From a virus: a DNA stretch of 34,560 nt. Shown piece after piece: positions 3,711-32,335 of the stretch (within the stretch, counting starts at the first letter, position 1; every line of letters begins with the position of its first letter). The DNA is taken from IMG/VR virus record IMGVR_UViG_3300028392_000175, positions 1-34,560 of that record. One strand, written 5' to 3'. The position numbers were made by a program, and so were the translations under genes. A model generated the notes under the pieces. It was not told the DNA's origin and did no database searches. It saw only the letters and a list, made by a program, of their open reading frames with translations.

Positions 3711-5140
<1,430 letters not shown>

Positions 5141-7615: not shown

Positions 7616-7629
7616 TAATAGCACAATAT

Positions 7630-7637
7630 GGTATAAT
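7630..7637 (+). promoter_or_regulatory. Extended -10 promoter, leaderless start of glycosyltransferase gene
   Basis: TGGTATAAT (7629-7637) is a perfect extended -10 (TGN plus TATAAT). Exactly six bases separate the hexamer from the ATG at 7644, so the transcript is expected to begin at the A of the start codon: a leaderless mRNA, a form common in actinobacteria. No ribosome binding site is present, in agreement. No convincing -35 at 17 bases. The sequence TATAATTCGGACAT also matches the repeat core of the array at 29967-30078. Confidence 0.7.
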
Positions 7638-7643
7638 TCGGAC

Positions 7644-8705
7644 ATGAAGATTGCTGTCTATGCAATAGCATTAAATGAAATTCTCCATGTTGAAAGATGG
7701 GCAAAGGCAACCGAAGGTGCGGACTATCGCATAGTTGCAGATACGGGAAGCACAGATGGCACACAAGAGAAGCTACGGGAAATGGGCGTTATTGTCCATG
7801 ACATTCGTGTACGCCCTTGGCGCTTTGATATGGCTCGTAACGCTTCGCTCAGTCTGGTACCAGAAGATGCGGACATTTGCCTCTTTCTAGATCTGGACGA
7901 GGTTCCAGAACCTAAGTTCTTTGACAAGGTTCGCAAGGGTTGGGTTGAAGGATCCGACCATGCTTGGATTACTTTTGATACTGGCAGCAGATGGCACAAA
8001 GATAAGATCCATTCCCGCTGGGGATGGAGCTGGAAATATCCTTGCCATGAGGTAGCAGTATTTTACGGTGGCGAAGTTGCTAAGCATTGCATGATTGATA
8101 ATGCGCTTATTACACACAAGCCAGATGAATCTAAATCTCGCGGTCAGTATATCCCGCTACTTGAGTTAAGCGTTAAAGAATACCCAGATGATCCACGTAT
8201 GTGGACATATATGACCAGAGAGTATTACTTCCATCAACGATGGGAAGATGTACTGCGAGCAGGTCAAAGAACTTTAGAACTAGATGGTTGGGATGTAGAG
8301 CAAGCCGCCACTTGTAAGTGGCTAGGCGAAGCCGCTCATCATTTAGGTAATACCGAAGAAGCAACCAAATGGTTTGTCAAAGGTACAGAGATATTGCCCA
8401 AGCAAGGTGAACCTTGGTATGGCGTAGCAATAGATGCTTATAGGCGTCGTGATTGGTCCACTTGTTTAAGTGCTTCAATCAACGCCATTGAATGTCCACG
8501 CTCAGTTCATTACTGCTACGAAGCAGCAATCTGGGATTGGAAAGCATATGACCTTGCAGGTGTTAGTGCGTATAACTTGGGTCTATATCAAGAATCTAAA
8601 ACATTTACGGAAGCTGCTCTTATAGGCGTACCTGCTGGCGCTGAAAAGGATCGCATCAAGCGTAACCTGGAATTTACTAAAGACTTTCTAAAGAGGAATA
8701 AATGA
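7644..8705 (+). CDS. Family 2-type glycosyltransferase with TPR-like C-terminal half
   Basis: A 353-residue protein. The N-terminal GT-A domain shows the nucleotide-sugar motif ADTGSTDGT (32-40), the helix WRFDMARNASL typical of this subgroup, and the metal-binding FLDLDEV (81-87). The C-terminal half (about 180-340) is made of helix pairs such as EEATKWFVKGTEI and GLYQESKTFTEAAL, resembling tetratricopeptide repeats. It would transfer a sugar to a protein or surface glycan. Its position among fibre genes suggests fibre or capsid glycosylation, or modification of the host surface. It is led by its own leaderless promoter, unusual inside a late structural module. Confidence 0.85.
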   Translation: MKIAVYAIALNEILHVERWAKATEGADYRIVADTGSTDGTQEKLREMGVIVHDIRVRPWRFDMARNASLSLVPEDADICLFLDLDEVPEPKFFDKVRKGWVEGSDHAWITFDTGSRWHKDKIHSRWGWSWKYPCHEVAVFYGGEVAKHCMIDNALITHKPDESKSRGQYIPLLELSVKEYPDDPRMWTYMTREYYFHQRWEDVLRAGQRTLELDGWDVEQAATCKWLGEAAHHLGNTEEATKWFVKGTEILPKQGEPWYGVAIDAYRRRDWSTCLSASINAIECPRSVHYCYEAAIWDWKAYDLAGVSAYNLGLYQESKTFTEAALIGVPAGAEKDRIKRNLEFTKDFLKRNK

Positions 8706-20392: not shown

Positions 20393-20882
20393 TCCTAGCA
20401 TTGGACATGAGATGGCAGTTGGAATGTTATCTATTCCTTACCGTACTCCTGCTGGTATCAACGGGATTAAATTTCGCCGCATAGATAACGGCACACCTAA
20501 GTACCTTTGGCCTACTGGCCAGAAGATTGGACTGTTCAATGTCATGGATCTACATAAGTCCTCAGACACCATCGCAATCTGCGAAGGCGAGATTGATACG
20601 ATTGTGCTTAGCGGTCTTGTTGGTATTCCCGCTGTTGGCGTTGCTGGCGTCAGTCAATGGAAGCCTTGGTTTCCGAAACTCTTTGAATCGTATAACCGAA
20701 TTCTTATCTTCGCTGACAACGACGTCAAAGAAGACGGACGAAACCCAGGACAAGAGCTAGCCAAGCGAATTAAAGAGGACTTAAACACAGCAACAGTAGT
20801 CCACTTAGATGATAATAAAGATGTTAACGACACGTACCTAGAACATGGTTCCGCGTGGTTCGATGATAGACTGGCGGCATGA
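20247..20882 (+). CDS. Primase TOPRIM domain protein (part 2 of split primase)
   Basis: A 211-residue protein with the TOPRIM catalytic motifs: E113 in ICEGEIDTIV and the D157/D159 pair in IFADNDVKEDG, where metal ions bind. Preceding it, GMLSIPYRTPAGINGIKFRRI is the DnaG-type N-terminal catalytic subdomain. The frame is open only from 20235, so the ATG at 20247 is the only ATG start before the conserved region. It overlaps the zinc-domain gene by 146 bases. Synthesises RNA primers, probably together with the zinc protein. No helicase fusion is present. Confidence 0.8.
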   Translation: MLNAEQRNLLTEAATRYSEHRNEATASYLLGRGISPAVADLYQLGSVVDPSIGHEMAVGMLSIPYRTPAGINGIKFRRIDNGTPKYLWPTGQKIGLFNVMDLHKSSDTIAICEGEIDTIVLSGLVGIPAVGVAGVSQWKPWFPKLFESYNRILIFADNDVKEDGRNPGQELAKRIKEDLNTATVVHLDDNKDVNDTYLEHGSAWFDDRLAA

Positions 20883-21923: not shown

Positions 21924-22657
21924 AAACAATAGTTGTCCTGTCCGATCTTCAATCGCCTTACCATGATGTGCCAGCAACTAAGGCCATTGCCAAGTTCATC
22001 AGAGCTTACAAGCCAGATAGCGTGGCTAGTGTAGGAGATGAGATAGATCTTCCGCAAATCTCCCGCTGGGAAGAAGGCGGTGAAGGTGAATGGCAACGTG
22101 ACTTAGGTCGTCACCGAGATATTACAGTTAAACTATTAGAAGAATTGCAAGTGGATCATATTGTTCGCAGTAATCATAGCGACAGATTGTATAACAAGAT
22201 CAAGTCGAAAGCCCCTGGCTTTCTTGGCTTACCAGAATTAGAGATTGAAAAGTTCTTAAAGCTAGATAGCCTTGGCATTACCTACCATCATGGGCCATAT
22301 GAACTAGCACCCAACTGGCTACTTATGCACGGCGATGAAGGTAACGTTCAACCTACTGCTGGTGCTACCGCTCTTGGCTTAGCCAAACGCTCAGGCATGA
22401 GCGTAGTCTGTGGGCATACGCATCGCATGGGTTTGACTCATCATACTCAGGGCTGGGCTGGTAAAACTAAGACTATCTGGGGTATGGAAGTCGGCAACCT
22501 CATGGACTATAAGTATGCGCGCTATATTAAAGCAGGGTTATTTACCTGGAATAAAGGTTTTGGATTACTCCATGTCAATGGCAATACGGTCATGCCGCAG
22601 CTTGTACCTATCGTAAACAATTCATTTACAGTGGACGGTAAAGTCTGGAAATGGTAA
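21920..22657 (+). CDS. Calcineurin-like metallophosphoesterase
   Basis: A 245-residue protein starting at TTG in a TTGA overlap. Metal-binding motifs are in order: SDLQSPYHD (D9), SVGDEIDLP (D40), RSNHSDR (N85, H86), LMHGDEG and CGHTHR. These are the five blocks of the family; it would hydrolyse phosphodiesters or phosphomonoesters with two metal ions. In phages, relatives include DNA-end or nucleotide phosphatases. Substrate unknown. Its end overlaps the PP-loop gene by 7 bases. Confidence 0.82.
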   Translation: MKTIVVLSDLQSPYHDVPATKAIAKFIRAYKPDSVASVGDEIDLPQISRWEEGGEGEWQRDLGRHRDITVKLLEELQVDHIVRSNHSDRLYNKIKSKAPGFLGLPELEIEKFLKLDSLGITYHHGPYELAPNWLLMHGDEGNVQPTAGATALGLAKRSGMSVVCGHTHRMGLTHHTQGWAGKTKTIWGMEVGNLMDYKYARYIKAGLFTWNKGFGLLHVNGNTVMPQLVPIVNNSFTVDGKVWKW

Positions 22658-23484
22658 CAAAACATGTAGTAATGTTTTCAGGTGGCATCGGTTCTTGGGC
22701 TGCCGCAAAAATGGTTGCAAGTACATTTGGGACAGATAATCTTTATTTGTTATTTACGGATGTTAAAGGAAATGCAGAATCTTCTCATATTGGAGAAGAT
22801 GAAGATACTTACAGATTCCTTAATGATGCCGTTGCCAATGTCGGTGGTAAATATATTTACATTAACGAAAACAAAGATATTTGGGAAGTATTTAAGGAAA
22901 AAAAATATCTTGGCAATTCTCGATTAGCACATTGTTCTTTTGAATTAAAACAAAAACCAGCAAGAAAATGGCTTAATGAAAATTGCGACCCAAATAATAC
23001 TATTGTTTATGTTGGTATTGACTGGACAGAAACGCATCGTTTGCCAGCTATAGTCAAAAACTACAAACCATATGTAGCTGTTGCTCCATTGGCCGAGCCT
23101 TTCTTTCATAAAGAAACTAAAATGTATTACGACAAGCATGAACTTATTGAATGGGCCAAGTCTGAAGGGCTTGAGCCACCACGTTTGTACAGTTTAGGGT
23201 TTAACCATAACAATTGCGGCGGCGGGTGTGTACGTGCTGGACAAGGACAATTCAAAAAATTGCTGGAAATAATGCCAGAACGGTTTGCCATGTGGGAAAC
23301 AAAAGAGCAAGAAGTTATTCAACATATTGGGAAAGATGTTTCAATCTTAACAGAAACTGTTAAAGGCATTAAAAAACCTTTACCTTTAATAGAATTGAGA
23401 AAAAGAATTGAAAGTCAGTGCGCTATTGATGAATATGATATTGGCGGTTGTGGCTGTTTCTTTGAAGAAGACGAGAGACAGTAA
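22651..23484 (+). CDS. PP-loop ATPase / PAPS-reductase-like protein
   Basis: A 277-residue protein. SGGIGS (10-15) is the PP-loop that binds ATP in the PAPS-reductase and DndC-type superfamily. Conserved-looking cysteines are C95 (AHCSFELK), C189 and C193 (NCGGGCV) and C267/C269 (GGCGCF), which could hold an iron-sulfur cluster. Members adenylylate a substrate for sulfur or nitrogen transfer; phage members are linked to DNA or tRNA modification. The gene is clearly more AT-rich than its neighbours, with A or T in most third positions and runs such as GGAAAAAAAATAT, suggesting recent transfer. Confidence 0.78.
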   Translation: MVTKHVVMFSGGIGSWAAAKMVASTFGTDNLYLLFTDVKGNAESSHIGEDEDTYRFLNDAVANVGGKYIYINENKDIWEVFKEKKYLGNSRLAHCSFELKQKPARKWLNENCDPNNTIVYVGIDWTETHRLPAIVKNYKPYVAVAPLAEPFFHKETKMYYDKHELIEWAKSEGLEPPRLYSLGFNHNNCGGGCVRAGQGQFKKLLEIMPERFAMWETKEQEVIQHIGKDVSILTETVKGIKKPLPLIELRKRIESQCAIDEYDIGGCGCFFEEDERQ

Positions 23485-23949
23485 ATGGTAGTTGTTAAGT
23501 TAAGCGCAGGAGATGTAGCGTGGGCAACCAATGAAGCGGTCAGCAGGTACAACTTTAACAGAGCAAGAGGTAATGACCATTCTGGTAGCGCTGCTAAGAC
23601 ATGGGTCGAAGCCATCGCACGTGAGATTTCAGGTGTACTTGGCGAGATTGCTGTGGCACGTTGGCTTGATAAGTTTCCCCATACTCTTTTTGAAGATCGC
23701 AAGACTGGCGATGTGGCAGGCCATGAGATTCGCACTACTACGTACACTACGGGTCGCCTCATTCTTACTAAGACTGACGACCCGACTCGAAAGTATTTCT
23801 TAGTTACATTGCCAGATCATTACACTGCCAACATAGTTGGCTGGCTCTATGGTTATGAAGGACAGAAGGAAGAACATTGGAATACCGACTTCTCTATCCC
23901 CTGCTACACCATTGAGCAGCAACGATTGCACGACGTTAGGGATATGTGA
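23485..23949 (+). CDS. Conserved hypothetical protein, possible nuclease-like fold
   Basis: A 154-residue protein directly after the PP-loop gene. The pattern GVLGEIAVARWL, then TGDVAGHEIRTTTYTTGRLIL, gives an E, a D and an E-x-R in the order of a PD-(D/E)XK core, with Arg in place of Lys. Downstream, YFLVTLPDHYTANIVGWLYG and IPCYTIEQQRLH complete an alpha/beta domain. Similar proteins are found in actinophages without known function. Nuclease activity is only a guess given the missing Lys. Confidence 0.6.
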   Translation: MVVVKLSAGDVAWATNEAVSRYNFNRARGNDHSGSAAKTWVEAIAREISGVLGEIAVARWLDKFPHTLFEDRKTGDVAGHEIRTTTYTTGRLILTKTDDPTRKYFLVTLPDHYTANIVGWLYGYEGQKEEHWNTDFSIPCYTIEQQRLHDVRDM

Positions 23950-24584
23950 AGCCTTGGTTAGATGAAGCAACCGACATCGCATCGCAAGTTGCCAAACAAA
24001 TACATAAGCGGTACCACACGTACTTTGCTATTGATGACTTACGTCAGGAACTTATCCTCTGGTGCGTCTCACGTCCCGACAAGATTCAACAGTGGCTTAA
24101 CCCTGAGCAAAGTCCTGAGGATTACAAGGGTGGTATTAACCAGCTTGCTAAGACTCTTTCCCGCCATGCTGATCGCTATTGTCGCAAGGCTAAAGCACAA
24201 GCGGTAGGCTATGAGTTACGCGATGAGGTGTATTACTCACCTGCTCTACTTTCCGAGCTGTTGCCTCATGTCTGGTCTAACGTAGCGCCAACTGCTGACA
24301 CTACTAAGCCACGTGTATCAGGTGGTGGTGCGCCAGCAGAAGGTGGCAACTATGTTGTCTCGCTCTTTGATGTACGCGCTGGGTTAGAGAAGCTAGATCC
24401 TGATGATCGTGTTGTCTTGCAGTATCGCTTCTTTGAGAACTTAACCTATACCGACCTTGCTGTTGTCCTTAACATCTCCGACTCATCTGCTCACCGTAAG
24501 GTGGACGGTGCGTTGCGTCGTTTGTGTCGCCACTTAGGTGGCGATAATCCATTCATCTCTAAGAAGGGTAAACCTCATGCCTAG
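23946..24584 (+). CDS. Sigma-70-like transcription factor
   Basis: A 212-residue protein with GTG start (GTGA overlap). Residues about 28-85 resemble sigma region 2 (FAIDDLRQELILWCVSR). A Gly/Ala/Pro linker (about 115-137) leads to residues 145-196, a clear region-4 helix-turn-helix: GLEKLDPDDRVVLQYRFFE, then LTYTDLAVVLNISDSSAHRKVDGALRRL. It could direct host RNA polymerase to phage promoters such as the TGN-TANNNT elements or late promoters. Alternatively it is a sigma-like DNA-binding regulator. It is the second-last gene of the replication operon, as expected for an early-to-late switch. Confidence 0.7.
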   Translation: MKPWLDEATDIASQVAKQIHKRYHTYFAIDDLRQELILWCVSRPDKIQQWLNPEQSPEDYKGGINQLAKTLSRHADRYCRKAKAQAVGYELRDEVYYSPALLSELLPHVWSNVAPTADTTKPRVSGGGAPAEGGNYVVSLFDVRAGLEKLDPDDRVVLQYRFFENLTYTDLAVVLNISDSSAHRKVDGALRRLCRHLGGDNPFISKKGKPHA

Positions 24585-25827: not shown

Positions 25828-26283
25828 TTAAAAGACTTCCGATGAAGCAGTATCCTGCGGTTTTGATTTTACGCGAGTTTGTCCTGTTCGCTCTTTGATC
25901 GAAAGTCTTTCCGAACTGTAGGTTGGTGCTGGTATATCCTTGGGAATTGATGGACATTCTAAGCCTGCCTTCTCTACCGCGTAAGCGCGTAGTCTGCGTT
26001 GCCAATCTGTATAACGAGTGTACTTTGCTTGGGTTGCGCCTAATTCTAGGCGCTCATAGGGGAAGCTACCACCGTAGATACCATCACCAATAGAAAATAT
26101 ATTACTCATCGCGTCGTCCAAGCAAGTCTTTTGGACGGGACAAGTGGCGCAGATTTGTAACGCTACAAGTGTGCGAGCTGCTTCTGCTTCTCGACCATCT
26201 TTCATACGCGCTGTTGGGCTGGGAAACCATAGTTCTGGATCATGTCCAGCGCAGGCTGGCTTCATGTCAGGCTTTAGTGTCAA
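25828..26283 (-). CDS. whiB: WhiB-family iron-sulfur transcription regulator
   Basis: A 151-residue protein with the four cluster ligands C11, C45, C48 and C54 (ACAGHDPELWFP; ICATCPVQKTC) and the GIYGG turn (SIGDGIYGG) that follows in Wbl proteins, then a basic C-terminal tail for DNA contact. The start is TTG 26283, preceded by GGGAG; an ATG at 26265 would leave only four residues before C11. WhiB proteins are confined to actinobacteria and their phages and act with sigma factors, so this is the strongest host indicator. It may reprogram host transcription or block superinfection, as described for mycobacteriophage WhiB. Confidence 0.92.
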   Translation of the reverse strand: MTLKPDMKPACAGHDPELWFPSPTARMKDGREAEAARTLVALQICATCPVQKTCLDDAMSNIFSIGDGIYGGSFPYERLELGATQAKYTRYTDWQRRLRAYAVEKAGLECPSIPKDIPAPTYSSERLSIKERTGQTRVKSKPQDTASSEVF

Positions 26284-27408: not shown

Positions 27409-27704
27409 GCTGCCACCTGCGCGTTAAGTATGACGCGATATGAGCCACCCCAGCTGGCCGTTGCCACGTCGCCGTCGAATGTCCAGTCGCTAGCCTTATC
27501 GAATCCTAAGAATGAGCCTTGTGTATTCTGATCTAATTGCTCATCGGTTACTAGGTAAACTCCAGTAGTATTGGCCTTGCGTATATGTCGCACCTGTCCC
27601 ACCTGTAGGCGTCCGCCGCTAATGTTATTAGCTAAGGCTAGCGTCTCTAGTTTTGTACCTTGCGCGGATAGTAGCCGCTTAAAGTGTGCGTGATTCTTAA
27701 TCAT
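27405..27704 (-). CDS. Hypothetical protein (99 aa), first gene of leftward unit 3
   Basis: A 99-residue protein with a GAAAGGGT ribosome binding site 6 bases before ATG 27704. The N-terminal half is basic (MIKNHAHFKRLLSAQGTKLE; VRHIRKANTTGVYLVTDEQL); the C-terminal half has beta strands ending SWGGSYRVILNAQVAA. It is preceded by a structured leader and the promoter-like sequence at 27784-27812, and followed by a chain of overlapping genes. No family recognised. Confidence 0.65.
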   Translation of the reverse strand: MIKNHAHFKRLLSAQGTKLETLALANNISGGRLQVGQVRHIRKANTTGVYLVTDEQLDQNTQGSFLGFDKASDWTFDGDVATASWGGSYRVILNAQVAA

Positions 27705-27730
27705 GGTTTAACCCTTTCATTCTGTATAGT

Positions 27731-27767
27731 ACGCGCCCCTTTAGCGCGTCCCGTCCTACCCTGTAGG
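27731..27767 (-). other. Two hairpins in 5' leader of 27704 gene
   Basis: ACGCGC (27731-27736) pairs with GCGCGT (27744-27749), and CCTAC (27755-27759) with GTAGG (27763-27767). Both fall in the leader between the predicted transcription start (about 27777) and the ATG at 27704. They may fold the leader and influence translation or processing. Confidence 0.4.
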
Positions 27768-27783
27768 GGATAGGCTACCGTCC

Positions 27784-27812
27784 ACGGTATCGCTACCGTG
27801 TACGATAGTCAA
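27784..27812 (-). promoter_or_regulatory. Leftward promoter-like sequence 3, with palindrome
   Basis: On the minus strand TTGACT (27812-27807), a 17-base spacer and TACCGT (27789-27784) fit the TTGAC/TANNNT actinobacterial pattern. The -10 lies in the inverted repeat CACGGTA/TACCGTG (27783-27800, 7-base-pair stem, TCGC loop), which could be an operator. It sits between the stop at 27830 and the gene starting at 27704. Confidence 0.5.
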
Positions 27813-27829
27813 GCACCTACAATTAGCGG

Positions 27830-28345
27830 CTAGTCTTTAATCATGGACATAAGCGAGATAGGCGCGACGTAATCGCTAGGCCGCTCGTATTCCCAGTATC
27901 CATCGCTAATCATGCGACATAGCTTATGGCGTAACGCGTCGCATATAGCCTTAGCGAAAGAATAGCGCCACGTATTAGCCTCGCAGGCTTGGTATTCATA
28001 GCAATTTAACGCACCCATAATCACGCTAACGGGTACGTCTAGGATAGGCCGCCACGTGTTAGAGAGTAGGTCATCGTGTATAAGATCGGTAGGGTCATCG
28101 TAACGTGCGCGTAAGCTAGCGACGTTAGCTGCCCATAATTCGCGGACAATATTATCTTCATCGCCGCCGCGTAATACTAGGTGGCGGCTACCGTAAACGT
28201 CCGTGCTTAATTGTAGGCCTTGCGTCGGTGGCGCTTGAGTATCGTCTAGATAAACGTACGTCTCGCGGCTAGTACCTAGCCCGTATAGCGTCGCTGCGCT
28301 AGCTAATAAATCTAGCGTGTCGCTATTTACTAGGTACGCGCTCAT
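27830..28345 (-). CDS. Hypothetical protein (171 aa)
   Basis: The longest gene of the CTAG-rich segment. It has three visible parts: a Leu/Ala-rich start (NSDTLDLLASAATLYGLGTS), an acidic middle (RGGDEDNIVRELWAANVASL), and a C-terminal helical region with YSFAKAICDALRHKLCRMIS and a SDGYWEYERPSDYV stretch. No membrane segment, no zinc motif. Leu is mostly encoded by CTA and Ala by GCG or GCT, giving many CTAG words. I do not recognise the family. Confidence 0.65.
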   Translation of the reverse strand: MSAYLVNSDTLDLLASAATLYGLGTSRETYVYLDDTQAPPTQGLQLSTDVYGSRHLVLRGGDEDNIVRELWAANVASLRARYDDPTDLIHDDLLSNTWRPILDVPVSVIMGALNCYEYQACEANTWRYSFAKAICDALRHKLCRMISDGYWEYERPSDYVAPISLMSMIKD

Positions 28346-28500
28346 GCTGCTACCTGCTCATACTTAGCGCGTAGCGCTAGGCCTTGCTCACTATAGAGCT
28401 TAACTAGGCGCTTAGCCTTAGTCTCCGTAGTGGTTACGGATACCCATTCTGTCCCGTCCTTATCGCTCATGGTGAGCGAGATTAGTTTAGCTTTAGCCAT
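28342..28500 (-). CDS. Small basic protein (52 aa)
   Basis: ATG 28500 with AAAGGG upstream; stop overlaps the next ATG (ATGA). It reads MAKAKLISLTMSDKDGTEWV and then a basic helix (TKAKRLVKLYSEQGLALRAK). The first gene of leftward unit 2, behind the promoter-like sequence at 28557. The beta-then-helix layout could be a DNA-binding miniprotein, but no family is recognised. Confidence 0.6.
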   Translation of the reverse strand: MAKAKLISLTMSDKDGTEWVSVTTTETKAKRLVKLYSEQGLALRAKYEQVAA

Positions 28501-28556
28501 TAGATACCCTTTCCGATACTAATTACTTACCTAGCTAGCTGCTAGGCCTTAACGCT

Positions 28557-28586
28557 AGGGTATTACTAACCTAGCGCTAAAGTCAA
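28557..28586 (-). promoter_or_regulatory. Leftward promoter-like sequence 2
   Basis: On the minus strand TTGACT (28586-28581), an 18-base spacer and TACCCT (28562-28557). It begins 3 bases after the stop codon at 28590 and would give a leader of about 50 bases for the gene at 28500. A CCTAGC/GCTAGG hairpin (28530-28546) lies in that leader. Confidence 0.45.
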
Positions 28587-28589
28587 TAG

Positions 28590-28769
28590 CTAGCGATTAA
28601 GTGTGCCGCGCTCCCTAATCATGGCCCTAGCCATGCGCTCACTCTCGCGTCGTGTATATCCTGCGTAGATACGCTCACCTAGCCACGTGTTACCACGATA
28701 GGCGCTTATCCGATAGTAATTCCCGATTATATGGTTACCGTCGCGGCTTATTAGTAGCTCTAGACTCAT
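28590..28769 (-). CDS. Small basic protein (59 aa)
   Basis: ATG 28769 (ATGA overlap) to TAG 28592-28590. It has a beta-rich start (MSLELLISRDGNHIIGNYYR) and an Arg-rich helical end (YTRRESERMARAMIRERGTL). Basic overall, without Cys. Last gene of leftward unit 1. A nucleic-acid-binding role is possible from composition only. Confidence 0.6.
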   Translation of the reverse strand: MSLELLISRDGNHIIGNYYRISAYRGNTWLGERIYAGYTRRESERMARAMIRERGTLNR

Positions 28770-28927
28770 AAGCGGCCTACGTATTCTCTCATAGCTGCGA
28801 CGTCGCTAGGCGTGCCGCCTAACGTCGCGCATAACGTCGCCGCGTGGCTAGAGCATAGCTGCCTAGCGTATAGGTAGCCCTCTACTAATATCATGGCCTT
28901 ATTCTCACACTTATCACACTTATTCAT
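28766..28927 (-). CDS. Zinc-ribbon miniprotein (53 aa)
   Basis: ATG 28927 overlaps the upstream stop (TAATG) and its TGA overlaps the next ATG. C4/C7 (MNKCDKCENKA) and C25/H28 (QLCSSHAA) have the CxxC...CxxH spacing of treble-clef zinc ribbons seen in many small actinophage proteins. The C-terminal helix is PSDVAAMREYVGRL. Confidence 0.65.
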   Translation of the reverse strand: MNKCDKCENKAMILVEGYLYARQLCSSHAATLCATLGGTPSDVAAMREYVGRL

Positions 28928-29100
28928 TACTTACCCTCTCTAATTAGTTGCGCATGATCTAGGTACCGTCGCACCTGCGCTAATTGATCTAAGCGGCCTT
29001 GGTAGTAGGTATAGCTCTCGCCGCTTGATATACCTAAGTCGGACATGCGCTCTAGTATCCACTCACCTTCAACGTCTAAGAATTGCTCTAAATTACTCAT
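28927..29100 (-). CDS. Helical hypothetical protein (57 aa)
   Basis: ATG 29100 to TAA 28929-28927 (TAATG overlap). Mostly helix: MSNLEQFLDVEGEWILERMS, then YTYYQGRLDQLAQVRRYLDH. No Cys or membrane segment. Not recognised; coupled tightly in the leftward chain. Confidence 0.6.
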   Translation of the reverse strand: MSNLEQFLDVEGEWILERMSDLGISSGESYTYYQGRLDQLAQVRRYLDHAQLIREGK

Positions 29101-29253
29101 TTACTTACCCTCTCTCTCGTTTAGTCTGCGTACTCTTTCCATGCCGCGGCGATAGAATAAATACGTGTTATAGATAAGCTCAATAGATAGCCACGTGGCA
29201 AGGGTTAGCGCGATAGTCTCAACCCATGCGTGAACGTAATAGGCCGCGCTCAT
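29101..29253 (-). CDS. Single-pass membrane miniprotein (50 aa)
   Basis: ATG 29253 (ATGA overlap) to TAA 29103-29101, one base before the next ATG. Residues about 9-33 (AWVETIALTLATWLSIELIY) form one membrane helix, followed by a strongly basic tail (YRRGMERVRRLNEREGK) that should remain in the cytoplasm. An early membrane-acting factor, for example for superinfection exclusion, is possible but unproven. Confidence 0.65.
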   Translation of the reverse strand: MSAAYYVHAWVETIALTLATWLSIELIYNTYLFYRRGMERVRRLNEREGK

Positions 29254-29609
29254 GCTGCTAGCAGCTCTCGCGCTAGTTTAGGGCTATTAGCGTCTAGTGG
29301 TACCGTGTCGCTAATATCGAATACGTAACGCCACGTAAAGATAGGCTTATCGTCGTCGTCTAGCTTACCTAGTGGCACTAGAATAGCTAGGCCTTTAGCA
29401 CCTTTACGCACCATGCGGCCCGATTCGCGCCACGCGTGAAAGCCTGCGCAATTAGTAGCGGTAGGCGACTGGCTAAGGATAGCTAGACAGTTATAGGGAG
29501 AATAGCTAGCCAGTAGGCTACCGGGTACGTCCACGCCATCGCCTAGCGCGGCTATAGCTGCGCGTAGGTTAGAGATAAATAGCTGCTTATCTTGCTTAGA
29601 TCGTGTCAT
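29250..29609 (-). CDS. ArdC N-terminal-domain-like antirestriction protein
   Basis: A 119-residue protein, first of the leftward module, with GAAAGG before ATG 29609. YSPYNCLAILSQSPTATNCA, GFHAWRESGRMVRKGAKGLA and FTWRYVFDISDTV follow the pattern of the ArdC/LtrC N-terminal domain, which binds single-stranded DNA and takes part in protection from restriction. The C-terminal metalloprotease domain of full ArdC is absent. Expression first from the promoter at 29659-29687 fits an anti-defence role on entry. The activity itself is inferred. Confidence 0.75.
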   Translation of the reverse strand: MTRSKQDKQLFISNLRAAIAALGDGVDVPGSLLASYSPYNCLAILSQSPTATNCAGFHAWRESGRMVRKGAKGLAILVPLGKLDDDDKPIFTWRYVFDISDTVPLDANSPKLARELLAA

Positions 29610-29658
29610 TACTTTAACCTTTCACTTATCGCTAGCTCCTGTAGTTAGCGATAGCGTT

Positions 29659-29687
29659 AAAGTAGTGCCTATCCGTAGGCGTGTCAA
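29659..29687 (-). promoter_or_regulatory. Leftward early promoter 1
   Basis: On the minus strand TTGACA (29687-29682), exactly 17 bases, then TACTTT (29664-29659). The -35 is a perfect consensus. The leader to ATG 29609 would be about 43 bases and contains GAAAGG. It is the best promoter match of the three on this strand and would drive the ArdC-like gene and the four that follow. Confidence 0.7.
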
Positions 29688-29702
29688 TAGCCTAATAGTG
29701 TG

Positions 29703-29724
29703 AATTAGGTAACAATTAGGTAAC
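29703..29724. repeat. 11-base tandem direct repeat
   Basis: AATTAGGTAAC occurs twice head to tail (29703-29713 and 29714-29724), immediately upstream of the leftward promoter. Further TTAGG words follow to 29860. Possible binding site of an initiator or regulator. Confidence 0.75.
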
Positions 29725-29770
29725 GATTATTTAGGCCGATTAGGCTTACACGTTAGGCCATAAGGTAAAG

Positions 29771-29848
29771 GTTAGGGCCATTAGGTAAAGGGTTAGCAGC
29801 TGCCTAGTTAGTTAGGGCCTAGCGATTAGCCGCCTAGTTAGGGCCTAG
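29771..29848. repeat. GTTAGGGCC dispersed repeats
   Basis: GTTAGGGCC is found at 29771, 29811 and 29837; the last two extend to GTTAGGGCCTAG and are preceded by CCTAGTTAG-like sequence. GGTAAAGG(G)TTAG also occurs twice, around 29763 and 29784. They form a cluster of iteron-like words. Confidence 0.7.
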
Positions 29849-29871
29849 ATAGCTGCCGATTAGGTAGGCGC

Positions 29872-29901
29872 TACGTCGTGTTATGTCGTGTTATGTCGCG
29901 T
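29872..29901. repeat. 10-base triple repeat
   Basis: TACGTCGTGT, TATGTCGTGT and TATGTCGCGT follow each other without gap, a period of 10 that places all three on one face of the DNA helix. Confidence 0.8.
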
Positions 29902-29966
29902 TAGATAGTACGCATACACTCCCAATTCTAACCTCCGACATTCCGCCCATATCCGCTTATATAGGA

Positions 29967-30078
29967 CAATTCAGCCCATAAAGTACAATTCGGACATCGT
30001 TTACAATTCGATACGATCTGTCTAATACGGACATATCCATACAATTCGGGCGTAACGGTATAATGCGGGCAAAACGGA
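29967..30078. repeat. Array of six 18-19-base iterons, core YAATTCGGRCAT
   Basis: Units start at 29967, 29986, 30004, 30023, 30042 and 30061: CAATTCAGCCCAT, CAATTCGGACATC, CAATTCGATACGA, TAATACGGACATA, CAATTCGGGCGTA, TAATGCGGGCAAA. Spacing is 19, 18, 19, 19 and 19 bases. Most are preceded by TA, so each also contains a TACAAT or TATAAT hexamer. Weaker units may extend the array at both ends (29929, 29948, 30079). Regular spacing suggests cooperative protein binding, as an origin iteron or operator array. Confidence 0.75.
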
Positions 30079-30224
30079 CAAACTAGGACAAATCAACCCC
30101 AGGGTTATTAAGTCTGCCTCGCGCGAGTATATACTATCAACCAAAGTATTTTTTCTAAATATAGGCTCTGACCTGCGGTTTTACTACCTAATTAAAATGT
30201 GGCACGAATCACAGACCTAAATGT

Positions 30225-30245
30225 GGGATAAACACTCTTTATCCC
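30225..30245. other. Perfect hairpin upstream of terminase leader
   Basis: GGGATAAA (30225-30232) pairs with TTTATCCC (30238-30245) around CACTC. It is followed at once by the AT-rich TTAGTATATAGT, a possible -10. It could be an operator or an end-of-transcript signal ahead of the late leader. Confidence 0.55.
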
Positions 30246-30262
30246 GCCTTAGTATATAGTAG

Positions 30263-30403
30263 GGGACTTCGTAAGCACTGGAGAAGTCCCAATGGCCTAT
30301 GGCCAAGCGGAGCTTATAGCGGAGCGCAGGCCTTACGTCCTGCTTTTATCTGGGCATTGGAAATGCCCCTATGGTTACCCACTAAGCGCACCCATAAGGG
30401 TGC
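30263..30403 (+). ncRNA. Structured 5' leader of terminase operon (five hairpins)
   Basis: Five hairpins follow each other: GGGACTTC/GAAGTCCC (30263-30290), TGGCC/GGCCA (30293-30305), GCAGG/CCTGC (30326-30343), GGGCATT/AATGCCC (30352-30368) and GCACCC/GGGTGC (30388-30403). A direct repeat AGCGGAGC occurs at 30306 and 30318. The chain stops 18 bases before the AGGAG ribosome binding site. It resembles a regulatory leader RNA; alternatively it includes the packaging-initiation site. No known riboswitch class is recognised. Confidence 0.5.
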
Positions 30404-30436
30404 TTCGCAGCGGGTGTATTAGGAGAATTGTATCCA

Positions 30437-32335
30437 ATGGCAAAACTACCCAAGCAGAGTATGCTCGCGCCTACAGCAGAGCTTTCGGCGCCACAGGCAA
30501 AAGATCTTATCGTCAAGTTAGTAACAGACGGTTTCTCAATTGCTGATGCAACTCGCGCCGCTCACAAGTCAATTAAGTCCTATGAGTATTATCGGGCATC
30601 CGATCCTCAATTCAAGGATGCCGTAGATTTAGCCCGCGCAGTTCAGCGCCGTAAAGGTGTCGTATCTGAAGAAGACAAAGACATCAGCTTTGAAGATTTT
30701 AGACTCAAGTATCTAAACAGTCAGACCTTCCCCCATCAGCGCAATATCATCTCGCTGCTGGAAGAAGGTGAGCCTGCTTGGCTACATCCGAGCATGACCT
30801 TTGAAAAGGCTTTCGCTAATTACGTTCTTTGTAATATGCCGCCTGAACACGCGAAGACGATGACGGTCAGCATTGACTACCTCACGTACCGCATCGTCAC
30901 AAATCCTAATATCAGAATTAAGGTTGTATCCAAGACTCAGGCAATGGCGAAGGAATTCGTATATGCCATTAAGCAAAGATTAACCTCTCCCACCTATGCT
31001 GAACTTCAAAGGCGCTACGCGCCAGCTGACGGCTACAAAGCCTCAGCCGAGAAGTGGACAGCAGATTCGATTTACTTAGAACGAGATAGCGGCGAAAAAG
31101 ATCCTACGCTACAGGCTCTAGGTATTGGCGGTCAAATCTATGGCGCACGTGCCGATTTGATCGTACTAGATGACTGCGTTACCTTGGCTAACGCCAATGA
31201 ATACGAGAAGCAGATTCGCTGGATCCAACAAGAAGTTTTAACCCGTGTTGGTCCAACAGGCAAAATTCTTATCGTGGGTACACGCGTAGATCCAATGGAT
31301 CTATACCGCGAAGTCCGCAATCCAGATCGCTACCCAGATGGCAAGTCTCCTTGGACTTACCTGGCTATGCCAGCTGTGCTTGAGTTTAAGGACAATCCAT
31401 CTAAATGGGTAACGCTATGGCCTAAGTCAGATCGCCCTTGGATGGGCAGTGACGATGAGCCAGATGCAGAAGGTTTATACCCACGCTGGGATGGCAAGAA
31501 TTTAAAGCAGCGTCGTGGCTTACTTGACCCAAAGACTTGGGCAATGGTTTACCAGCAACAGGATGTAGATAGTGAAGCAGTCTTTAGCCCAGAGTGTGTA
31601 CGCGGCAGTGTTAGCGGCATGCGGGCATCAGGCCCACTTATTGTCGGCGCACCTGGACATCCTGCAACCCTCACGGGCAGCTACACCATCTGCGCAATGG
31701 ATCCAGCAATGTCAGGAGATACGTTCTCAGTCGTTTACGCTGGAGACAAAGCAACACAGAAGCGATACATATTAGAAGCAAGTCGTATGCCTGCACCTAC
31801 ACCGCAGCGTATCCGCGAACTGATCTTCTCCTGGACTGATAAATACAACCCAAAGGTTTGGGTAATTGAGAAGAACGCTTTCCAGTTGTTCTTGACGATG
31901 GATGAAGAAATAAATAAGTTTTTAGCAAGTCGTGGTATCCGTCTAGTTCAACACTACACAGGTTCCAACAAAATGGATGCCGAGTTTGGCGTAGCCTCTA
32001 TGGCTCCGCTCTTTGGCTCACTGGACAAACTTGGTAAGCATATGGGAAACAATCTCATTGACTTACCACGCACTGATGGCGAAAGTATCAAGGCTCTTGT
32101 TGAGCAATTGATTACCTGGTCGCCAGGAACAAAGAATAAGCAAGATGGTCCAATGGCCTTGTGGTTCGCAGAGACTCAGATGAGAGATTACATCAATCAA
32201 TCTGGTTCATATGGATCTACATGGGTTAAGAATCCATTTGCTACACGCAACGACATCGCAAGACGCAAGGTTGTGAACTTGGAAGAATACGCAAAACTAC
32301 AGGAAAAAGTTGCTAACAACGGGGGGTACTACTAA
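30437..32335 (+). CDS. terL: Terminase large subunit with fused DNA-binding N-terminus
   Basis: A 632-residue protein. Start ATG 30437, with AGGAG 11 bases upstream; a TTG at 30428 is too near that site. Residues about 20-70 (KLVTDGFSIADATRAAHKSI, SYEYYRASDPQFKDAV) look like a small-terminase helix-turn-helix. The ATPase has a variant Walker A PPEHAKTM (135-142) and Walker B ADLIVLDDC (239-247). The nuclease has AMDPAMSG (D422) and VIEKNA (E478). It cuts and pumps DNA into the head through the portal. No separate small subunit was found, so the N-terminal domain may take that role. Confidence 0.9.
   Translation: MAKLPKQSMLAPTAELSAPQAKDLIVKLVTDGFSIADATRAAHKSIKSYEYYRASDPQFKDAVDLARAVQRRKGVVSEEDKDISFEDFRLKYLNSQTFPHQRNIISLLEEGEPAWLHPSMTFEKAFANYVLCNMPPEHAKTMTVSIDYLTYRIVTNPNIRIKVVSKTQAMAKEFVYAIKQRLTSPTYAELQRRYAPADGYKASAEKWTADSIYLERDSGEKDPTLQALGIGGQIYGARADLIVLDDCVTLANANEYEKQIRWIQQEVLTRVGPTGKILIVGTRVDPMDLYREVRNPDRYPDGKSPWTYLAMPAVLEFKDNPSKWVTLWPKSDRPWMGSDDEPDAEGLYPRWDGKNLKQRRGLLDPKTWAMVYQQQDVDSEAVFSPECVRGSVSGMRASGPLIVGAPGHPATLTGSYTICAMDPAMSGDTFSVVYAGDKATQKRYILEASRMPAPTPQRIRELIFSWTDKYNPKVWVIEKNAFQLFLTMDEEINKFLASRGIRLVQHYTGSNKMDAEFGVASMAPLFGSLDKLGKHMGNNLIDLPRTDGESIKALVEQLITWSPGTKNKQDGPMALWFAETQMRDYINQSGSYGSTWVKNPFATRNDIARRKVVNLEEYAKLQEKVANNGGYY

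Follow-up and report, generated by a model that had tools for sequence, protein, structure and literature searches.

A helical A/T oscillation phase-locked to a putative terminase cut, with a 19-base repeat array as one instance of the pattern

Results

Organization of the locus

The DNA analyzed here, called the window below, is the whole stretch of 34,560 nucleotides of the IMG/VR virus record IMGVR_UViG_3300028392_000175 (positions 1–34,560). Toward its right end, it carries an array of short direct repeats, downstream of which lie the genes for a large terminase (PHROG 38, E 6.2e-63) and a portal protein. The features at and around this array are collected in Table 1.

Table 1. Features discussed in the text, by position in the window (an arrow marks the cut within a sequence)
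Feature	Position	Strand	Basis
Extended −10 promoter TGGTATAATTCGGACATG of the glycosyltransferase gene, apparently leaderless	7629–7646	+	Pattern scan and relatives
Likely early leftward promoter, TTGACA-17-TACTTT	29659–29687	−	Pattern scan
Repeat-rich left flank, ATTAGG/TAGGTA words	29690–29903	.	Repeat and period scans
Alternative putative left cut GATA↓GTAC (29907/29908)	29904–29911	+	Pattern match; shares 9 of 11 bases with L004
Preferred putative left terminase cut GACA↓TTCC (29940/29941)	29937–29944	+	Local alignment to L004
Putative direct terminal repeat	29941–30130	.	Homology to the exact repeats of four Streptomyces phages
Array of CAATTC and GGACA words, ~9.5-bp lattice	29967–30078	+	Self-match, A/T period scan
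Conserved element AGGGTTATTAA near the right end of the putative terminal repeat	30101–30111	+	Homologous place in relatives
Conserved noncoding block GTATTTTTTCTAAATATAGG, right of the putative terminal repeat	30146–30165	+	Comparison of terminase relatives
TGTGGCACGAATCACA, imperfect TGTGA-N6-TCACA palindrome	30198–30213	.	Exact in relatives
Large terminase; residues 14–79 (~30476–30673) modeled as an HTH like the Sf6 small terminase	30437–32335	+	Fold comparison

For comparison, terminase relatives were collected from viral contigs, and the best 80 of 595 were taken (loci labeled L002 and so on). The conserved block to the right of the array has its core, with ≤3 substitutions, in 71 of these 80 loci, the other 9 being without it. 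The palindrome is exact in 58 of the 80; among the 71 block-bearing loci, 57 have it ≤160 bp to the 3′ side of the block. It resembles a Crp/GlxR site, and similar sequences are also seen in the Streptomyces phages and in ct2KA10. Between the putative terminal repeat and the terminase gene there are five small inverted repeats (30225–30245, 30264–30289, 30326–30343, 30352–30368, and 30388–30403), with similar ones in close relatives as judged by eye, and these form a possible structured leader.

The likely leftward promoter lies ~280 bp from the array, on the side away from the terminase, and L002, L005, and L006, read by eye, have a GTGTCAAG-type sequence in a comparable position. The left flank has an A/T period of ~11 bp in 150-bp windows, but over the 220 bp preceding 29908 the strongest period is 6.5 bp. 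By eye, the genes and intergenic DNA of 27700–29900 look unusually rich in CTAG/TAGC. Within that stretch, a small leftward gene (29250–29609) has an ArdC N-terminal match (E 3.5e-5) and homologs in L007 and L062, making it a candidate anti-restriction gene. Elsewhere, the gene at 20879–21442 matches a Pfam proteasome subunit (PF00227, E 1.9e-7) and is also found in L003 and L017, and the gene at 22651–23484 belongs to the phosphoadenosine phosphosulfate reductase family (PHROG 424).

The array is regular and built on a 9.5-bp lattice

A first-pass annotation of this DNA had described six 19-base iterons sharing a core, and the six units do start where it placed them (29967, 29986, 30004, 30023, 30042, and 30061, in steps of 19, 18, 19, 19, and 19). 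That the array is regular and non-random is borne out by its self-match at lag 19, which reaches 0.53 in 29951–30090 (z 6.8), a z value never equaled at lags 5–44 in 2000 dinucleotide shuffles. Smaller self-match peaks at lags 9, 10, 28, 37, and 38 indicate an underlying lattice of ~9.5 bp, of which the 19-base unit represents two steps. The GGACA words of the region start at 29964, 29992, 30029, 30076, and 30086, with a GGGCA at 30067, so that successive words are 28, 37, 38, 9, and 10 bases apart.

The shared core itself holds for only part of the array. At ≤2 mismatches, YAATTCGGRCAT is present in the units at 29986, 30023, 30042, and 30061 but not in those at 29967 and 30004, which keep little apart from CAATTC. 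With the same tolerance, the core has 14 matches in the window compared with 8.35 expected, and 14 matches or more were reached in 6 of 100 shuffles of the window. A matrix made from the six units ranks these units, on which it was itself trained, and a site at 7632 above all other places in the window. By autocorrelation at lags 15–24, 45 of 3442 window stretches rank above the array; the 15 of these that were listed all lie in coding repeats at 4161–4881. By A/T content, 29976–30125 is the strongest periodic stretch at 9–11.25 bp in the 34.5 kb scanned. A DNA search with 28500–30800 against the phage collection gave no match. The array is probably a protein-binding site, as the first-pass annotation thought.

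The site at 7632–7645 (TATAATTCGGACAT) had been described as a near copy of an array unit over the −10 and ATG of the glycosyltransferase gene, and this is exact. Its setting is that of a promoter: TGGTATAATTCGGACATG is the window's only extended −10 (hexamer within one base of TATAAT) located 5–8 bases before a start codon, and 52 of 80 glycosyltransferase relatives have an extended −10 located 3–12 bases before theirs, including L206, which is on one contig with L003. The GGACAT part varies among these relatives, and the likeness between the array and the glycosyltransferase site comes down mostly to a shared −10-like string and may be due to chance. The separation of 12 kb given for the two sites, counted through a joint of the contig ends, is not supported, as the window has no end repeat and the distance from the terminase to the glycosyltransferase gene is 19.6 kb in L003, which suggests that the window ends probably lack ~8 kb. 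The two contig ends (1 and 34560) are probably not a closed joint and instead border a gap between portal-side and glycosyltransferase-side genes.

The array lies within a putative terminal repeat

In a collection of annotated phages, the nearest relatives of the window terminase are those of Streptomyces phages. The records of four such phages with terminases 43–45% identical to it, Kumquat, FlowerPower, ZooBear, and Stella, start with GTCC, and their first 264, 253, 274, and 263 bases, respectively, are exactly repeated at the right end; the published length of the FlowerPower terminal repeat is 253 bp (PMC9753666). The sequence GGGTTGTTAA lies near the right end of each of these four repeats, and the freshwater relatives have a G-run followed by TTAA at the homologous place, referred to as the right element. 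In 50 of 64 freshwater phages, an exact GACWGT precedes the right element by 150–255 bp; shuffles predict 1.9. The freshwater left cut was chosen by this pattern with ≤1 mismatch (49 of 62 choices are exact GACWGT); the cut of L022, which is outside the set of 23 phages analyzed below, seems to be off by 4 bases. Of the 80 terminase loci, 2 lack the right element, and 61 yielded a usable repeat, which with the window makes 62 freshwater regions, 33 of them nonredundant.

From homology to the terminal repeats of these Streptomyces BF-cluster phages, the array is probably located inside a putative terminal repeat of the phage genome, upstream of the terminase. Since the window contig contains no exact terminal repeat of 10–300 bases, we infer the terminal repeat of the window phage by homology. 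Its left edge would be at 29941 or 29908 and its right edge is placed to within ±~10 bp; the array falls inside whichever left cut is taken. The preferred putative cut rests on an alignment in which 18 of 22 bases are identical to L004 from −4 to +18 of the L004 cut, with L002 and L035 aligning likewise, and its GACA↓TTCC is homologous to GACA↓GTCC of the relatives. The alternative cut, 33 bases away, is less likely, and neither candidate is an exact GACWGT. The window cut was set to 29908 in most of the repeat and phase computations, and the conclusions are the same with either cut or without the window.

An A/T oscillation of one helical turn is locked to the putative cut

The sequence of the array region is not conserved, the relatives inspected carrying words of their own. 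What recurs is the density and spacing of repeats. In 31–33 phages, repeat density peaks from −400 to 0 of the right element (mean z 3.9–5.5) and is at most z 1.8 in the remaining windows from −1500 to +1100. The 37 nonredundant repeats (33 freshwater and 4 Streptomyces) show 4-mer recurrence at lag 10 (z 22), at 20–21, and at 30–31, a series that is absent from two control regions; lags 4, 5, and 8 are likewise raised. The autocorrelation of A/T content is highest at lags 11, 21, and 31, with minima at 16 and 27. The lag 10–11 signal exceeds z 2 in 23 of 30 zones, leaving 7 below that value, compared with 2 of 26, 3 of 27, 2 of 33, and 3 of 33 control windows. Power at 10.5 bp is highest 225–75 bp before the right element (5.05) and falls to 0.5–1.5 beyond −450 and +225.

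When the 33 freshwater phages are aligned on the left cut, their oscillations have a common phase (R 0.77 over 0–80). Alignment on the right element gives R 0.16–0.31 over −160 to −40, yet up to 0.54 over −80 to 0. Because kin could share a phase by descent, the phages were filtered by identity. For the 23 freshwater phages with <60% identity to one another, the lock to the cut has R 0.60–0.74 at periods of 10–11.5 and at most 0.35 below period 9 and from 13 up; a signal confined to periods near 10–11.5 bp is not what shared descent alone would give. A random-phase test of this lock gives p ≤ 0.0002 (23 of the 62 freshwater phages), and leaving out the window gives R 0.63–0.69. Stricter filters retain too few phages for the purpose: at <55%, 11 phages have p 0.016–0.045 in two windows but lack a signal in two more, and at <50%, where 4 phages are left, no phase-lock is seen. 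The Rayleigh p-values assume independence and so overstate the case.

In the mean profile of 22 freshwater phages, A/T maxima lie at approximately 20, 30, 41, 51, 61, 71, 84, 94, 104, and 117, and on to ~168 from the cut, and on its left side at approximately −7, −17, −27, −37, −49, and −61, with a break in phase of about half a turn at the putative cut. The lock on the left side weakens under stricter filtering. The window itself has its best A/T period at 9.25–9.5 bp, not 10.5, which makes it a somewhat deviant member of the family, and its phase at 10.5 bp matches that of the family for either cut. These results demonstrate, at the level of sequence, that the conserved feature is physical: an A/T oscillation of ~10.5 bp that is phase-locked to the putative terminase cut. 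This helical pattern is a stronger finding than the array, which is one instance of a broader conserved pattern.

The helical pattern recurs in soil phages

A further set of loci, which had no part in the discovery of the phase signal, was fetched from soil with the Kumquat terminase. Of 80 soil loci, 77 were examined (L445, L453, and L472 had too little upstream DNA), and 33 of the 77 had both landmarks, so that the 44 lacking them could bias the set. The 27 that were kept are <75% like the four Streptomyces phages and one another. From +10 to +110, these 27 phages have a 10.5-bp power of 5.0, compared with 0.4–0.9 at periods 6–9 and 12–16, and share a phase of 2.6 bp (R 0.64); the four Streptomyces phages have phases of 2.8–3.8. 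Restriction to the seven soil phages with <60% identity yields R 0.71 (p 0.03), with mean maxima from 14 to 95, approximately nine turns. No power is seen in soil phages at +90 to +190 or left of the cut (left: R 0.38, power 0.9 at 10.5 bp). The soil phase is a third to half a turn away from the freshwater phase.

The GGACA word follows neither the terminase nor one orientation

GGACA/TGTCC is in excess (p < 0.05 compared with shuffles) in 5 of the 62 freshwater regions, those of the window, L034, L035, L043, and L044, and in 15 of the 27 soil-phage regions; it is above shuffles in the four Streptomyces phages as well (p 0.04, 0.000, 0.000, and 0.005). In the soil regions, 26 of 54 spacings between neighboring TGYCC words (≤45 bp) are 9 or 10 bp. 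In the five freshwater regions every copy reads GGACA, whereas the four Streptomyces phages have mainly TGTCC and the two orientations number 45 and 44 in the 27 soil phages. L002 and L003, the terminases of which are 93% identical to that of the window and the repeat regions of which are identical, have one GGACA copy and no excess. The first-pass annotation would have given up the array if related phages lacked any conserved core or spacing; for the core, the outcome is divided, with excess in few freshwater regions and recurrence in the soil phages. Since the word recurs there and helical spacing is widespread, the array is meaningful, for a reason other than those first proposed.

The absence of an excess in L002 and L003, taken with the mixed orientation, indicates that GGACA tracks neither the terminase HTH nor one orientation. 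Moreover, the recognition helix of that HTH, KSIKSYEYYRASD, is the same in the window and in L002, which lacks the excess, and has diverged in the Streptomyces phages, which have it. Sequence-specific reading of GGACA by the terminase HTH is thus disfavored. When the gene content of the window's right arm was compared, no gene stood out as tracking the GGACA array. In the window and in many soil phages, the word may be bound directly.

A candidate reader at the N terminus of the large terminase

The modeled N terminus of the terminase has helices at residues 18–30, 35–41, 46–55, and 57–72, in a block with pLDDT 71–87 over residues 11–70 (whole-model mean 59). Its three best fold alignments are all to the DNA-binding domain of the Sf6 small terminase, gp1 (Z 7.4, 7.2, and 6.8; the next is 4.5), with Foldseek E-values >1 and with Z values under 8 that possibly reflect a common arrangement. 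Run as a profile against solved structures, the terminase N terminus gave nothing below E 0.13 and no terminase. The model thus supports, short of demonstrating, an HTH domain fused to the N terminus of the large terminase.

Discussion

Based on the above results, we propose that the array is the window's form of a packaging-end element located between the left cut and the conserved GGGTTNTTAA element. From the cut inwards, the DNA of this phage family has short words, differing among many phages, that are set about one helical turn apart and locked in phase to the cut, a spacing that puts A/T-rich stretches on one face of the DNA. HTH domains on the N terminus of the large terminase would grip this bendable DNA once per turn by conformational selection, and their grip would wrap the DNA and position the nuclease at the cut. 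The words would be free to drift while the phase stays. We give even chances to a packaging-end element read partly by its shape, with the DNA wrapped on terminase HTH domains. The broader proposal, that a large actinophage clade marks its genome end by a sequence-free wrapping code, made of helically phased DNA with drifting words anchored to the cut and read by HTHs fused to the large terminase, is more tentative and falls somewhat short of even chances. Besides the terminal repeat of the window phage, we infer both the terminase as reader and the wrapping of DNA.

In the SF6/SPP1 model (PMC4737164), weak HTHs arranged in a ring pick out DNA that is intrinsically bent, adjacent HTHs being about one turn apart and the segments ~100 bp long; SPP1 pacL and pacR have no sequence identity in common (PMC4856287). 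Both points are consistent with words that drift at constant phase. Two other sources count against wrapping: the HK97 small terminase threads DNA rather than wrapping it (PMC11331095), and a nucleosome-like wrapping model is criticized in a review (PMC9611059), by which the footprints behind the model had no negative control. Whether small terminases wrap or thread DNA is called a “major debate” in the former (PMC11331095), and a phase anchored to the cut over dozens of unlike natural packaging sites provides independent comparative evidence on it, with the culturable Streptomyces phages as test systems for wrapping. If the proposal is true, the wrapping code would record, as an evolutionary footprint, that a viral packaging motor wraps DNA in a nucleosome-like manner. 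Where there is only sequence to go by, as for uncultured phages, helical phase may also help to locate packaging ends. By title and opening of the abstract, we found no report of helical periodicity at phage terminal repeats and, among the matches listed, none of an HTH-fused large terminase with terminal repeats; since most subscription papers lay outside this search, it is weak evidence of novelty. Literature on Beephvirinae with a terminal repeat, or on iterons with direct terminal repeats, was likewise not found.

The main rival to the terminase as reader is host gyrase, which wraps ~130 bp and would here have a strong site, perhaps for torsion relief in replication or packaging, with the periodic A/T content as its footprint. 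The E. coli gyrase motif has a 10.75-bp GC periodicity with two arms from −63 to −17 and 20 to 66 around the cleavage (PMC6379681), and the gyrases compared in PMC12324340 have a periodicity of 10–11 bp. The freshwater maxima at −17 and +20, with the half-turn break at the cut, resemble these arms, but the freshwater signal, which runs to ~+168, exceeds a gyrase arm and the soil signal is one-sided. In the Streptomyces phages, moreover, the lock is to the end of the record, where gyrase has no known reason to act, and we regard this reading as unlikely, if still deserving attention. A sequence-specific regulator or accessory packaging protein that reads GGACA, with the array as its operator or loading site, would account for the word excess in the five freshwater regions that have it (the window included), in the four Streptomyces phages, and in 15 soil phages, and for soil neighbors mostly 9–10 bp apart. 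It leaves 57 of the 62 freshwater regions without an excess, including L002 and L003, as well as an orientation that varies among phage groups and a word that no gene tracks in the right-arm comparison, and we also hold it to be improbable. An operator for the WhiB-like or sigma-like protein, as suggested by the first-pass annotation, fares poorly since homologs of both genes are present in L003, whose repeat has no word excess. The WhiB-like gene (25828–26283) is matched in 29 of the 80 terminase relatives and the sigma-like gene (23946–24584) is found in L003, L017, and L035; a regulator with changed specificity may remain compatible with these data.

The other two functions raised in the first-pass annotation were an origin and a set of stacked promoters. 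An iteron-type replication origin would fit direct repeats in noncoding DNA and the helicase- and primase-like genes in the window. Against it, no initiator gene was recognized in the 29 ORFs scanned (of 103 with ≥60 amino acids; each was compared with one library and the terminase with two), the words are not kept between close relatives such as L002 and L003, and the region is homologous to terminal repeats. The cumulative GC skew, the check that had been proposed for an origin, has no extremum at the array in this contig, which is a fragment. An origin is very unlikely. Functionless repeats made by slippage would explain why the words differ among close relatives, but they leave unexplained why diverged phages share a phase with respect to the cut and why it recurs in soil phages, and we give them little credence. 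Stacked promoters are the least probable of these readings, to the point of being hardly credible: TACAAT/TATAAT hexamers do occur in four units, but a scan with the sigma-70 consensus found no −35/−10 pair in the array, none of the four hexamers has a TGN before it, and the likely leftward promoter is located well outside it.

Comparison with known systems

Strong gyrase sites of the Mu type also have a GC periodicity of ~10.75 bp around the cleavage (PMC6379681), whereas the signal described here is locked to the end of the phage genome and is longer or one-sided. The cosB site of phage lambda is similar in having a binding region beside the cut and DNA bending (PMC4856287); it differs in its R sites and IHF, and in leading to cohesive ends rather than to the terminal repeats found in the four Streptomyces relatives.

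For the pac sites of SPP1/SF6, too, many weak HTHs are proposed to recognize bent DNA, and the two binding sites share no sequence (PMC4737164 and PMC4856287). By the same sources, SPP1/SF6 have a separate small terminase and pac packaging, whereas here the putative HTH is on the large terminase. Helically phased DNA, as in systems of this type, is present here in the form of phased A/T content, from which bendability is predicted; their headful mode does not agree with the fixed terminal repeats in the records of the four Streptomyces relatives.

T7 and T3 also have short imperfect direct repeats, both inside their terminal repeat and next to it. These repeats, named SRL/SRR, are CCTAAAG at lag 13 at the left end of T7 and have lags of 11–13 in T3; they differ from those of the window in their period of 11–13 bp, and both phages have a separate small terminase. 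A period scan outside the family (phiKMV, T7, T3, and tf; 16 windows per phage) found no helical A/T window near the repeat of phiKMV, one in T7 (−50 to 100, rank p 0.003), and three in T3 (rank p 0.001, 0.010, and 0.022). In tf, two windows have p 0.000 (−200 to −50 and +200 to +350) and three more have p 0.002–0.041, such that the strongest A/T windows at 10–11.25 bp flank the repeat on both sides. SIO1 has no exact terminal repeat of 51–1200 bases.

The window is also like the Beephvirinae (Kumquat, FlowerPower, ZooBear, and Stella), in which the element is also located upstream of a homologous terminase. Their terminal repeats have GTCC at the left cut and GGGTTNTTAA near the right end, contain GGACA/TGTCC words that are often 9–10 bp apart, and have a 10.5-bp A/T phase that is locked to the cut. 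They differ from the window in that the words are mostly reversed and the phase is a third to half a turn off, and their terminal repeats are present in the records, whereas that of the window is proposed from homology.
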